A stretch of 35,347 nucleotides of DNA from Clostridia bacterium (GTDB lineage: Bacteria > Bacillota > Clostridia > Oscillospirales > CAG-272), in the NCBI GenBank assembly GCA_017461635.1, contig JAFTXK010000081.1, positions 1 to 35,347 of the forward strand, in the 5' to 3' direction. Below, piece after piece: positions 5,615 to 35,347 of the stretch. The notes under the pieces are model-generated. The model was given only the letters and a program-made list of their open reading frames with translations, was not told where the DNA came from and made no database searches. A program made the translations under genes and the position numbers. Position 1 is the first letter of the stretch. Each line of letters begins with the position of its first letter.

Positions 5615-6808
5615 TCAGGGTTTAACAACATAATCGAGAGGATTCTTTGCCGTACCGTTAATTCTCACCTCAAAATGCAGATGATTTCCATATGAATGTC
5701 CCGTCGTACCCACAAAAGCGATAACATCGCCCTGCTTTACAACATCTCCAACCTTGCAATTGAGCTTATTAGCATGAGCATAAAGAGTAGATTTTCCGCC
5801 TCCGTGGTCAATGACTACATAATTACCATAGCTGTAATGGAAGGTTGCTGTAACGACCTTTCCGCTGTTAGATGCGTAAATATTTGTATTCTTCGTTGCG
5901 GGAATATCTATACCGCGGTGGAATTCTCTTACACCGTTAAGGGTTCTGTATCCGTACGGAGAGCTTATGCTCTTCCAGTTTAGCGGAAGAGGCCAGTTAA
6001 ATTCACCGCCTACATATTGGCTGTTTTCCTTAGCCTGCAGCTCGCGGAGATATTTTTCAAGCTCTTTATCAAGCTCTGCCTCTGCCGCAGCATAGCTGTT
6101 ATATGTGGATGTATATGCGCTGATATTACTTGAAAGCGTAATCAGATAATTCTCGTTTTCCTCCTGAAGAGCCTCAAGCTCCTTCTGTCTATCCTCAAGC
6201 TCGCTTTGATATGTCACCTGAGATTCTCTTGAGCTTTCAAGAGCCGCTTTTGCATCCTCAAGATCGATCTTGCTTTGTCTGAAGCTGTCAAGAAGCTTTG
6301 AACAATAGTCCATAAGCGATGTTACCTGCTCAATGCGCACGAGAAAATCATAAAAATCCTCTGCACCCAGCACCATTTCCACATAGCTTGCATCTCCCTC
6401 TTCATAGGTAAGACGCATGATCTGCTTGAAATTATCATACTGCTTATCAATATTATCAGAGGTTGTTTCTATCTCGGTCTCCTTTTCGAGGATCTTATTA
6501 TCAAGCTCAGTGATAAGAGCATTGATAGTTGTGATCTCCTCTTCGGTAAGGTTCACCTGCTCATCAATATAGGATTTATATTGAATTGCCTCGGCGCGGT
6601 TGCTTTTTGCCGCGTTGATCTTAGCAAGAACATCTTTTTTCTGTTGCTGAATGGCTTTGATCTTAGCCTCCATAGCTGATACCGTTGCATCCGTCGCCGC
6701 ATGGACAGTATTCGAACGGAGAAGGAATTCGCCCGCGCCCAAGAAGCAAAGCAGTGCTGCCAAAACGAACGATATAATTCTTCTCTTTAAAATCTTTGCC
6801 GATCTCAT
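5615..6808 (-). CDS. EnvC-like murein hydrolase activator or M23 (LytM) peptidase
   Basis: A 397-residue exported protein. It has a hydrophobic signal segment (about residues 12-37), a long coiled coil (about 40-270) and a C-terminal M23/LytM domain (about 295-397). The zinc ligands are present: HRGID gives H and D, and HLHFEV gives the last histidine. The domain is therefore probably a working endopeptidase, unlike degenerate E. coli EnvC. It lies directly downstream of ftsEX, whose ATPase cycle is known in other bacteria to drive coiled-coil partners that open or activate septal hydrolases. AAAGGAG stands about 11 bases before the ATG. Confidence 0.93.
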   Translation of the reverse strand: MRSAKILKRRIISFVLAALLCFLGAGEFLLRSNTVHAATDATVSAMEAKIKAIQQQKKDVLAKINAAKSNRAEAIQYKSYIDEQVNLTEEEITTINALITELDNKILEKETEIETTSDNIDKQYDNFKQIMRLTYEEGDASYVEMVLGAEDFYDFLVRIEQVTSLMDYCSKLLDSFRQSKIDLEDAKAALESSRESQVTYQSELEDRQKELEALQEENENYLITLSSNISAYTSTYNSYAAAEAELDKELEKYLRELQAKENSQYVGGEFNWPLPLNWKSISSPYGYRTLNGVREFHRGIDIPATKNTNIYASNSGKVVTATFHYSYGNYVVIDHGGGKSTLYAHANKLNCKVGDVVKQGDVIAFVGTTGHSYGNHLHFEVRINGTAKNPLDYVVKP

Positions 6809-22807: not shown

Positions 22808-24148
22808 TCAGAACGGAATTTTCATCTTGCCGAGCTTGCCCATCTTCTTCGGGTTCATGCCCGAGAGCTGCTTCATCATCTTTCTGATCTGCTCAAACTG
22901 ACGGAGAAGCTTATTGACATCCTCAACTGTCGTACCGCTGCCTGCCGCAATTCTCTTTTTGCGGTTTGCATTGATTATCTCGGGCTTTTCCCTCTCCTGC
23001 TTTGTCATCGACTTGATGATAGCCTCTGTTCTTGCCATAAGCTTTTCATCAATCTTAGCATCCTGCATCTGGGAGGGCTTTATGCCGGGGATCATACCCA
23101 TTATCTGCTCCATAGAGCCCATTTTTTTGATCTGGGCAAACTGATCGAGATAATCATCAAGTGTAAAGGTCTGCTTGCGGATCTTTTCCTCAAGCTCTGC
23201 CGCCTTCTTCTCGTCATAAGCCTGTTCTGCCTTCTCAATAAGAGAGAGAACATCGCCCATTCCGAGGATTCTGGAAGCCATTCTGTCGGGATAAAAAGGC
23301 TCGATGGTATCGAGCTTTTCGCCCGTGCCAACAAACTTGATGGGCTTGCCCGTAACATGTCTTACGGAAAGAGCCGCACCGCCTCGGGTGTCGCCATCCA
23401 GCTTTGTGAGGATAACGCCTGTGATATCAAGAAGCTCATCGAATGTGGAAGCCACATTAACCGCGTCCTGACCGATCATAGCGTCGATGGTGAGAAGTAT
23501 TTCCGTAGGATTAACTTCAGCCTTGATAGACTTCAGCTCATTCATCAACTCCTCATCTATATGAAGCCGTCCTGCCGTATCCACAAAGACCATATCATAG
23601 CCCTTGCTCTCGGCATATTTCAGACCTTCTTTAGCAATTTTAACGGGAGATTCCTTATCTCCGAGGGCAAATACAGGAATGTCAAGAGCCTCACCCACTA
23701 TCTGAAGCTGCTTGATAGCCGCCGGACGGTAAACATCGCAGGCGACCAGAAGCGGATGCTTGCCCTGCTTCTTATAAAGACCTGCCAGCTTACCTGCATG
23801 GGTTGTTTTACCGGCGCCCTGGAGACCGACCATCATAACCACTGTGGGAGGCTTTGAAGCAATGGTCAGCTTACTCTGAGTACCGCCCATGAGGTTTGTC
23901 AACTCTTCGTTTACGATCTTGACTATCTGCTGTGCGGGAACGAGACTTTCAAGCACATCCGAGCCGACAGCTCTTTCCGAAACTGTATTTATGAATTCAC
24001 GGACGACCTTGAAGTTAACGTCGGCTTCAAGCAGTGCGAGCTTTATCTCGCGCATGCCTGCCTTAACATCGGCTTCTGTGAGTTTACCCTTATTCCTGAA
24101 TTTTTTGAATGCGTTTGTAAGTTTATCGCTCAAACTCTGAAAAGGCAT
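22808..24148 (-). CDS. ffh: Signal recognition particle protein Ffh (SRP54)
   Basis: GTPase subunit of SRP, which binds signal sequences and 4.5S/6S RNA and delivers ribosomes to FtsY at the membrane. 446 residues. The N domain starts MPFQSLSDKL. The G domain has GLQGAGKTTHAGKLA, VDTAGRLHID and TKLDGDTRGG. The methionine-rich M domain carries GMIPGI...MQ and the RNA-binding SGTTVEDVNKLLRQF, and ends in MNPKKMGKLGKMKIPF. The start at 24148 is set by the family N-terminus and AAGGA about eight bases upstream. It lies 23 bases after ylxM. Confidence 0.98.
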   Translation of the reverse strand: MPFQSLSDKLTNAFKKFRNKGKLTEADVKAGMREIKLALLEADVNFKVVREFINTVSERAVGSDVLESLVPAQQIVKIVNEELTNLMGGTQSKLTIASKPPTVVMMVGLQGAGKTTHAGKLAGLYKKQGKHPLLVACDVYRPAAIKQLQIVGEALDIPVFALGDKESPVKIAKEGLKYAESKGYDMVFVDTAGRLHIDEELMNELKSIKAEVNPTEILLTIDAMIGQDAVNVASTFDELLDITGVILTKLDGDTRGGAALSVRHVTGKPIKFVGTGEKLDTIEPFYPDRMASRILGMGDVLSLIEKAEQAYDEKKAAELEEKIRKQTFTLDDYLDQFAQIKKMGSMEQIMGMIPGIKPSQMQDAKIDEKLMARTEAIIKSMTKQEREKPEIINANRKKRIAAGSGTTVEDVNKLLRQFEQIRKMMKQLSGMNPKKMGKLGKMKIPF

Positions 24149-24171
24149 ACCGTGTTTCCTTTCTAAAATAA

Positions 24172-24501
24172 TTAACCGAGATCCGCCGCGATCGATTGAA
24201 GCTCCTCGCAAAGCTCATCCGAGCCGAGAGAAGCCGCCAAAGCCTTTGCTCTCTCAATGCGCCTTTGCGCCGAATCGAATTTTTCGGCAAGATGAAGCTT
24301 TTCCTCAAGGAAAGTAAGCTCCTCCTCGGCTTTTTTGATGATATCTCTTACTCCCTGCCGTGAAATTTCAAGTTCTGCTGCGATCTCTGAAAGTGAAAGA
24401 TCATCATTATAATAATATCCGAGCACTTCCCTTTTTCTTTCCGACAAAACCTCGCCGTAAAAATCGAGAAGATAGCCCATACTCAAATTCTTTTCAAACA
24501 T
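24172..24501 (-). CDS. ylxM: YlxM-type helix-turn-helix protein (UPF0122)
   Basis: About 109 residues with a sigma-region-4-like helix-turn-helix: SERKREVLGYYYNDDLSLSEIAAELEISRQGVRDIIKKAEE. YlxM is encoded beside ffh across Firmicutes and in streptococci is reported to modulate SRP function. The start at 24501 (MFEKNLSMGYLLDFYG) matches the usual N-terminus and has GGGG seven bases upstream. It is first in the ylxM-ffh-rpsP-khpA transcript and follows a consensus promoter. Confidence 0.93.
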   Translation of the reverse strand: MFEKNLSMGYLLDFYGEVLSERKREVLGYYYNDDLSLSEIAAELEISRQGVRDIIKKAEEELTFLEEKLHLAEKFDSAQRRIERAKALAASLGSDELCEELQSIAADLG

Positions 24502-24521: not shown

Positions 24522-24563
24522 TGTAAAGCAAAATGCTTTACATATTATAAACCATGTAAAGCA
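24522..24563. promoter_or_regulatory. Three copies of the nonamer TGTAAAGCA over the ylxM-ffh promoter
   Basis: TGTAAAGCA occurs at 24522-24530 and 24555-24563 on the plus strand and inverted at 24534-24542. The first pair forms a palindrome with a three-base spacer at the likely transcription start. The second pair brackets the -10. Exact repetition in these positions looks like an operator, or an RNA hairpin in the leader; the binding factor is unknown. Confidence 0.6.
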
Positions 24564-24572
24564 CTTTGTCAA
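24544..24572 (-). promoter_or_regulatory. Perfect consensus SigA promoter of ylxM-ffh-rpsP-khpA
   Basis: TTGACA (24572-24567), 17-base spacer, TATAAT (24549-24544) on the minus strand. The transcript would start near 24537, inside the nonamer palindrome. Confidence 0.88.
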
Positions 24573-35147: not shown

Positions 35148-35176
35148 ATTATATCACAAGAAAAGCGCAATGTAAA
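35148..35176 (-). promoter_or_regulatory. Promoter of the murJ operon, with a TGTAAAGCA copy over the -35
   Basis: TTTACA (35176-35171), 17-base spacer, TATAAT (35153-35148) on the minus strand. The -35 lies inside TGTAAAGCA (35171-35179, plus strand), the same nonamer found three times at the ylxM-ffh promoter. Confidence 0.75.
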
Positions 35177-35203
35177 GCAATTTGAGAAAATAACATCAAA
35201 AAA

Positions 35204-35347
35204 GGCTGTAGTGTTACAATAGATGTGAGACTAAAAATAAAAAAAGAATAGAAAAAGTGATTGAGTTCTGTTAAAATAGAATTACCCCTAACTCACATCA
35301 ACAGAAAGGACTCAATCACTTCATGAAACATTATACCACAAACAAAC
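35204..35347 (+). mobile_element. Possible left end of an insertion sequence (cut by window end)
   Basis: From GGCTGTAGTGTTACAATAG (35204-35222) the sequence becomes A-rich and unlike its surroundings. It carries nested inverted repeats: GATGTGAG (35222-35229) with CTCACATC (35292-35299), and a 12-bp pair AAGTGATTGAGT (35255-35266) with ACTCAATCACTT (35310-35321). The last arm overlaps the AAAGGA ribosome binding site of an ORF starting at 35323. Such a hairpin hiding a start site is typical of transposase genes. The other end is outside the window, so this is inference. Confidence 0.45.
35323..35347 (+). CDS. First codons of an ORF, possibly a transposase (partial)
   Basis: ATG at 35323 opens a frame reading MKHYTTNK to the window end. 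AAAGGA lies about 12 bases upstream. Too short to identify by itself; the transposase idea rests on the structured leader before it. Confidence 0.4.

Follow-up and report, generated by a model that had tools for sequence, protein, structure and literature searches.

A conserved palindrome over the ylxM-ffh promoter as a proposed operator for the sigma region 4-like protein YlxM

The ylxM-ffh promoter and the copies of the nonamer

The window, which is the whole stretch of 35,347 nucleotides that was analysed (Clostridia bacterium, contig JAFTXK010000081.1), carries the ylxM and ffh genes on its minus strand behind a promoter that is joined to a perfect inverted repeat (Table 1). Read in the direction of ylxM, the minus strand consists of TTGACA, 17 bp, TATAAT, one base and TGTAAAG CATTTTG CTTTACA, followed by the ylxM start at 24501. 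The inverted repeat was noticed through the nonamer TGTAAAGCA, exact copies of which lie at 24522-24530 (+), 24534-24542 (-), 24555-24563 (+), 35171-35179 (+) and 5733-5741 (-), and the first two of these copies together make up both arms of a 21-bp palindrome (24522-24542). The first-pass annotation had correctly described three copies at the ylxM-ffh promoter, the second of them inverted, and a fourth over the -35 of murJ; the fifth copy, absent from that annotation, lies inside an M23 peptidase ORF (5615-6808). Five copies in the window compare with 0.31 expected, and this number was reached in none of 100 shuffles.

Table 1. Positions of the promoter elements, repeat copies and genes at the ylxM-ffh locus
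Feature	Position	Strand	Basis
Proposed YlxM box: conserved palindromic operator TGTAAAG CATTTTG CTTTACA, spacer 7	24522..24542		Sequence, conservation
Left half-site TGTAAAG, one base past the -10	24536..24542	-	Sequence
Right half-site CTTTACA, like a -35 hexamer (TTGACA) with a preceding C	24522..24528	-	Sequence
ylxM promoter, -35 hexamer TTGACA, 17-bp spacer to the -10	24567..24572	-	Sequence
ylxM promoter, -10 hexamer TATAAT	24544..24549	-	Sequence
Third nonamer copy, a lone half-site between -35 and -10; lineage-specific and possibly accessory	24555..24563	+	Sequence
ylxM, UPF0122 protein with sigma region 4-like HTH; proposed operator reader	24172..24501	-	Pfam, predicted fold
ffh (SRP54 GTPase), presumably the operon's second gene; coordinates of the longest ORF	22808..24211	-	Pfam SRP54 domains

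The signal is the palindrome at ylxM and not the bare nonamer, which is unremarkable and near background across the genome. The window's own genome (2.13 Mb) holds 32 copies of the nonamer against 9 of the reversed pattern, with about 19 expected from the scaled shuffle rate of the window, and all 8 of the copies that were inspected lie inside ORFs of at least 235 codons. L010, the second genome of the window's genus, lacks the third copy at the promoter (24555), and an extra half-site similar to this copy is present in one further locus (L053).

The copy at murJ had led to the proposal of a shared operator that links protein targeting to cell wall synthesis. It is true that the exact nonamer stands before both ylxM and murJ, and that the murJ copy is kept in a second genome of the genus. 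The murJ promoter of the window, however, consists of TTTACA (35171-35176), 17 bp and TATAAT (35148-35153), so that the nonamer copy covers its -35. A murJ hit at 1e-40 was obtained in 29 of the 59 family genomes, and only 2 of these have the nonamer upstream of murJ, both from the window's genus and both with TTTACA as the murJ -35. The palindrome was found upstream of murJ in 0 of the same 29 genomes (the best matches have 4 to 7 mismatches). The murJ copy is merely the -35 hexamer, and the shared operator, refuted at the level of conservation, retains a negligible probability. Further along, at 35220-35347 of the window, two inverted copies of a gtgattgagt... word lie just before an open frame starting ATGAAACATTATACCAC; judged by eye, this could be the border of an insertion sequence.

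Conservation and placement of the palindrome

The region upstream of ylxM was compared in 50 genomes of the window's family and, across the rest of the phylum, in 88 genomes that represent 73 families. These 88 were drawn from the 277 genomes with ylxM by choosing among the best-scoring hits listed, in most cases with a single genome for each family. Two loci, one without a ylxM target (L139) and one duplicate (L143), were excluded from these 138. The site was defined as TGTnAAG-N7/8-CTTnACA, with base 4 of each half free and at most one mismatch, within the 300 bases before ylxM. It is present in 48/50 loci of the family and in 85/88 loci of the other families, compared with 0.2% of upstream regions randomised under a first-order Markov model. 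The exceptions are L037 and L048 inside the family and L059, L061 and L063 outside it; L059 and L061 (2 of the 88) have ylxM and no site. The spacer measures 7 in 48/50 family sites and 8 in 83/85 sites from elsewhere (at most 3 mismatches). Similarly, in a set of 80 loci from named Bacillaceae and relatives, which excludes B. subtilis itself, every locus has the site no more than 60 bp from the ylxM start, with one mismatch or none, as exemplified by CGTAAAGGGATTTGACTTAACA in Bacillus spizizenii. Conservation thus strongly supports the operator over the ylxM-ffh promoter that the first-pass annotation had suggested, since the upstream regions of relatives keep the site rather than lack it.

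The position of the palindrome relative to the promoter is constrained as well. A promoter was predicted in 49 family loci; the left half-site lies 0 to +1 after the -10 in 41 of them, and in 37 it has the offset seen in the window. With at most one mismatch allowed, the site is found solely at the start site in 44/50 family loci and 55/88 others, both at the start site and on the -35 in 2 and 19, and on the -35 alone in 1 and 8, respectively; neither placement applies in 2 family loci and 5 others, and the promoter is unrecognisable in one each. When the site is placed on the -35, its right half CTTGACA contains the -35 hexamer itself and TGTnAAG lies 8 bp before the -35. This arrangement (at most one mismatch in TGTnAAG) occurs in 23/83 non-family promoters, 9 of them exact, compared with 4/83 for a gap of 7 and no more than 2 for any other gap from 0 to 29. 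Where both placements are present, the centres of the two sites are 50-53 bp apart in 14/21 pairs. In the named Bacillaceae an upstream site accompanies the first in 64/80 loci, with TTGACA as the right half in each.

The likeness of the half-sites to promoter elements raises the question of whether they are merely extra -35 boxes of overlapping or divergent promoters. Both TTTACA and TTGACA are -35-like, and a site elsewhere in the window's own genome resembles back-to-back promoters. The -35-embedded sites could partly be back-to-back -35 boxes of divergent promoters, an arrangement that does not explain their preferred gap. Against such an origin for the half-sites in general stand the fixed spacing of 7 or 8 bp, the invariance of the TGT/ACA ends and of the outer C/G, the occurrence of one site per genome, at ylxM, and the placement at the start site, with a ylxM leader in the window that on inspection has no -10 at 17 bp. 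Taken together, these features make extra -35 boxes an extremely improbable explanation. The resembling site (L363, G000:C25:3153) reads TGTCAAG-N7-CTTGACA and looks like the back-to-back -35 boxes of divergent promoters, one of which leads, by eye, into a stretch like a riboswitch leader.

A hairpin formed by the 5' end of the ylxM transcript, which had been offered as the alternative to an operator, could affect stability or translation or bind a protein, and the window sequence is able to form one, as is any perfect palindrome. The pattern of variation argues against it. Among 124 start-site sites, pair 4 is non-pairing in 35 and the other six pairs in 0 to 6 each, and these 124 sites give no sign that hairpin pairs are preserved through compensatory substitution: pair 4 varies unpaired and the others are nearly invariant. 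Transcription usually begins about 7 nt past the -10, and in most family members the expected start falls within the left arm, which leaves the transcript without part of that arm. In addition, the -35-embedded sites are not transcribed from the ylxM promoter, the folding of the window leader is unremarkable when compared with shuffles (z -1.67 and -0.39), and Rfam has no match in the window. The RNA hairpin is disfavoured by the non-pairing changes together with the sites lying outside the transcript, and appears very unlikely.

Association of the site with ylxM and its recognition helix

The palindrome overlaps the promoter of ylxM itself and, within the genomes of the window's family, is nearly restricted to this gene. 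In the family, the exact form TGTAAAGN7CTTTACA occurs at 38 distinct places in 36/59 genomes, and 36 of these places are within about 110 bp of a ylxM match; the reversed exact pattern is found in 3/59 genomes. The other two places adjoin copies of the ylxM promoter in a single genome (G011), one of them at a contig end. They were considered as a second target and, as far as seen, are not one: the site at the contig end is identical to the ylxM site, and the other stands beside a second ylxM promoter and start. This second copy (L139, G011:C74, 1089-1109) comprises a promoter, the operator and the first codons with no obvious intact ylxM, and is possibly a partial duplication. The window's own genome has the exact palindrome once, at ylxM, and a single additional match to the looser form (G000:C25).

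Across 299 genomes of the phylum, a loose N8 site is found anywhere in 202, and the reversed pattern in 36 (hand count). The degenerate N8 site occurs in 198/277 genomes with ylxM, compared with 4/22 without it (Fisher p 1e-6). Furthermore, 16 genomes without ylxM have an ffh hit, 15 of them show DNA upstream of ffh, and the site was found in 0/15 of these upstream regions, which come from 8 families, with 8 of the 15 from one family. Excluded from this comparison were six family genomes in which ylxM gave no hit; five of them have no ffh hit at 1e-60 and the sixth no sequence upstream of ffh. The absence of the site before ffh in ylxM-less genomes indicates that the site accompanies ylxM and not ffh. 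Repeats of similar appearance were also met with in two genomes: five exact TGTAAAG-N8-CTTTACA palindromes, each inside an ORF, are present in G328 (L164, L276-L279, from the same order), and 11 places of TGTGAAGTTGATGCCTTGACA type in G041, a member of the family, represent a dispersed identical palindrome that is apparently a repeat unrelated to ylxM.

The product of ylxM is the likely reader of the site. YlxM matches Pfam UPF0122 (PF04297) with 80.2 bits (cut-off 22.7) and Sigma70_r4 with 43.3 bits (cut-off 24.1), and its gene lies directly before ffh in the window and in 58/59 loci that are long enough to tell (79 are too short). The predicted model of YlxM has a mean pLDDT of 92, and its best fold matches, with Z 12.9 and 12.1 and a large rmsd along the long helix, are the two UPF0122 proteins of solved structure. 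The next matches are mostly sigma region 4 structures, including 1ku7, 2h27 and 6jhe on -35 DNA, with Z 8-10 over 52-67 residues, values that are not rare among helical folds. An alignment of the HTH with that of the genome's own SigA needs no gaps (ISRQGVRDI and ITRERIRQI, respectively) and equates R48, Q49 and R52 of YlxM with R584, E585 and R588 of sigma70. The same genome has two adjacent RpoD-like sigma70 genes, both with a complete region 4 (L282/L283, G000:C20). According to a review (PMC2613000), the sigma70 substitutions E585Q and R588H relax recognition at -33, and R584 contacts -31.

One residue of the recognition helix varies in association with a base of the half-site. Q49 is present in 47/50 family and 87/88 non-family YlxM proteins, R48 is conserved, and so is the half-site base that matches -31. 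Residue 52 is R in 45/50 proteins of the family and Y, H or F in 86/88 others. In the presence of R52, base 4 of the half-site, the equivalent of -33, is T in 89/90 family half-sites, and with Y, H or F it is T, A or G. When one genome per genus is counted in the family, with start-site sites only, R52 goes with TT in 44 cases and with non-TT in 1, and other residues with TT in 0 and with non-TT in 4; an earlier table, in which any best site was counted, gave 41, 3, 1 and 3, again for one genome per genus (p 0.004). One locus whose contig ends inside the promoter (L031) was excluded, and the single R52 counter-example, L308/L058, has R52 with a C.

A further search was aimed at sites of the family in which a half has a base other than T at position 4. 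It matched 47/315 genomes, of which 40 were inspected, and yielded 12 sites at ylxM, 8 of them new and all 8 with a residue other than R at position 52. The new sites come from three genera, and two of these (g54 and g55) were already known to be without R52, so that only g26 is independent; the right half-site is degraded in its locus L333. Approximately five changes can be placed on the tree, which is poorly resolved, and the sign test is not significant. The covariation of residue 52 with base 4 is accordingly a strong association with weak phylogenetic proof and few independent changes. R52 and the change of spacer from N8 to N7 are both characteristic of the window's family and possibly go back to one event.

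These results also bear on the possibility that some other transcription factor recognises the palindrome and controls SRP levels, with YlxM merely encoded by a neighbouring gene. The published role of YlxM (PMC8546722) lies with the SRP, which is compatible with such a factor. Three observations speak against it: all 15 of the ffh upstream regions from genomes without ylxM lack the site, the exact palindrome of the family adjoins ylxM at 36/38 places, unlike what would be seen for a global regulator, and a residue of the YlxM recognition helix varies with the half-site base. A different reader is therefore unlikely.

Proposed regulation and related systems

Comparison of the sequences suggests, with a probability of about 0.78, that the palindrome is an operator in double-stranded DNA which is read by YlxM and through which YlxM represses its own ylxM-ffh promoter. 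A YlxM dimer, presumed here, would place one sigma region 4-like recognition helix on each -35-like half-site CTTnACA, and YlxM bound over the start site, or over the -35 in other lineages, would keep RNA polymerase off the promoter. Three parts of this proposal are inferred: binding of the site by YlxM, a repressive effect of that binding, and a role in adjusting the quantity of SRP protein.

The genomes of Bacilli offer a lead to a wider regulon. TGnnAAG-N8-CTTTACA is found directly upstream of rpsP in 70/80 Bacillaceae loci, 43 of which are exact and the rest of which have TGACAAG; the interval contains unlike matches in 3/80 loci and none in 7/80. The inverted repeat (TGTTAAG/TGACAAG-N8-CTTTACA) lies about 1.7 kb after the ylxM start (L149-L152, L206, L195-L274), and its right half CTTTACA is the putative -35 of the rpsP promoter, P2. 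In B. subtilis, mapped transcription starts include P1, ahead of ylxM, and P2, immediately upstream of rpsP (PMC10100781). In addition, a genome with no ylxM site (G302; L275, G302:C36) has inverted repeats at 1683 and 3632, over the -35 of the rpsP and rplS promoters. The rpsP repeat is a possible second target of YlxM.

A more tentative extension, with the odds somewhat against it, is that YlxM serves as a feedback sensor of the SRP built from a sigma-factor domain, which in Bacilli would also hold the promoter of rpsP and perhaps that of rplS. The YlxM of S. mutans is described in PMC8546722 as an accessory protein to the SRP which binds both Ffh and scRNA, so free YlxM might report the supply of SRP. 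If Ffh and SRP RNA were plentiful and occupied, free YlxM would accumulate and shut the ylxM-ffh promoter from the start site or the -35; if SRP were short, YlxM would be tied up in the SRP and the promoter would open. In Bacilli, control of rpsP by YlxM would couple the supply of SRP to ribosome assembly.

A search of the open-access literature returned no account of an operator for YlxM or of autoregulation of ffh in Firmicutes, although earlier knowledge is possible, and no description of how the level of Ffh, which is essential, is set in Gram-positives or of the target of the YlxM HTH; PMC3616900 makes no mention of ylxM, ffh or signal recognition. The new element would be a phylum-wide operator of the autorepressor type that is read by a sigma region 4 domain on -35-like half-sites. 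An operator of this breadth offers a concrete and cheap test both of the control of Ffh levels and of the target of the YlxM HTH. If the proposal is true, the same DNA code would naturally be read by the polymerase and by its own competitor, and a free sigma region 4 domain would act as a repressor on -35-like half-sites, in some cases on the -35 hexamer proper, under a residue-to-base rule that matches the suppressor genetics of sigma70.

Three known systems are closest to the proposed one. The UPF0122 proteins S. mutans YlxM, 1xsv (S. aureus) and 1s7o (S. pyogenes) belong to the same family (PF04297), the two structures having been retrieved through both sequence and fold comparison, and are encoded by the first gene before ffh; the role given to the S. 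mutans protein in PMC8546722 differs in being that of an SRP accessory that binds Ffh and scRNA rather than that of an operator reader. Sigma-70 region 4 on the -35 (1ku7, 2h27, 6jhe) shares the HTH fold and a recognition helix that aligns without gaps, CTTnACA resembles the -35, and the residue-to-base relations at -33 and -31 may be those described for sigma70 in PMC2613000. In contrast to sigma-70 region 4, YlxM is a free small protein without core-binding regions, its sites form an inverted pair, and it has Q in place of E585.

Small HTH autorepressors characteristically act on a palindrome that overlaps the promoter of the repressor's own gene. Among those that act on inverted repeats, ArdK on IR3 DNA (7bcb) was returned as a fold hit. 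YlxM would differ from this class in belonging with a housekeeping SRP gene, in its phylum-wide occurrence and in half-sites that copy the -35 box.
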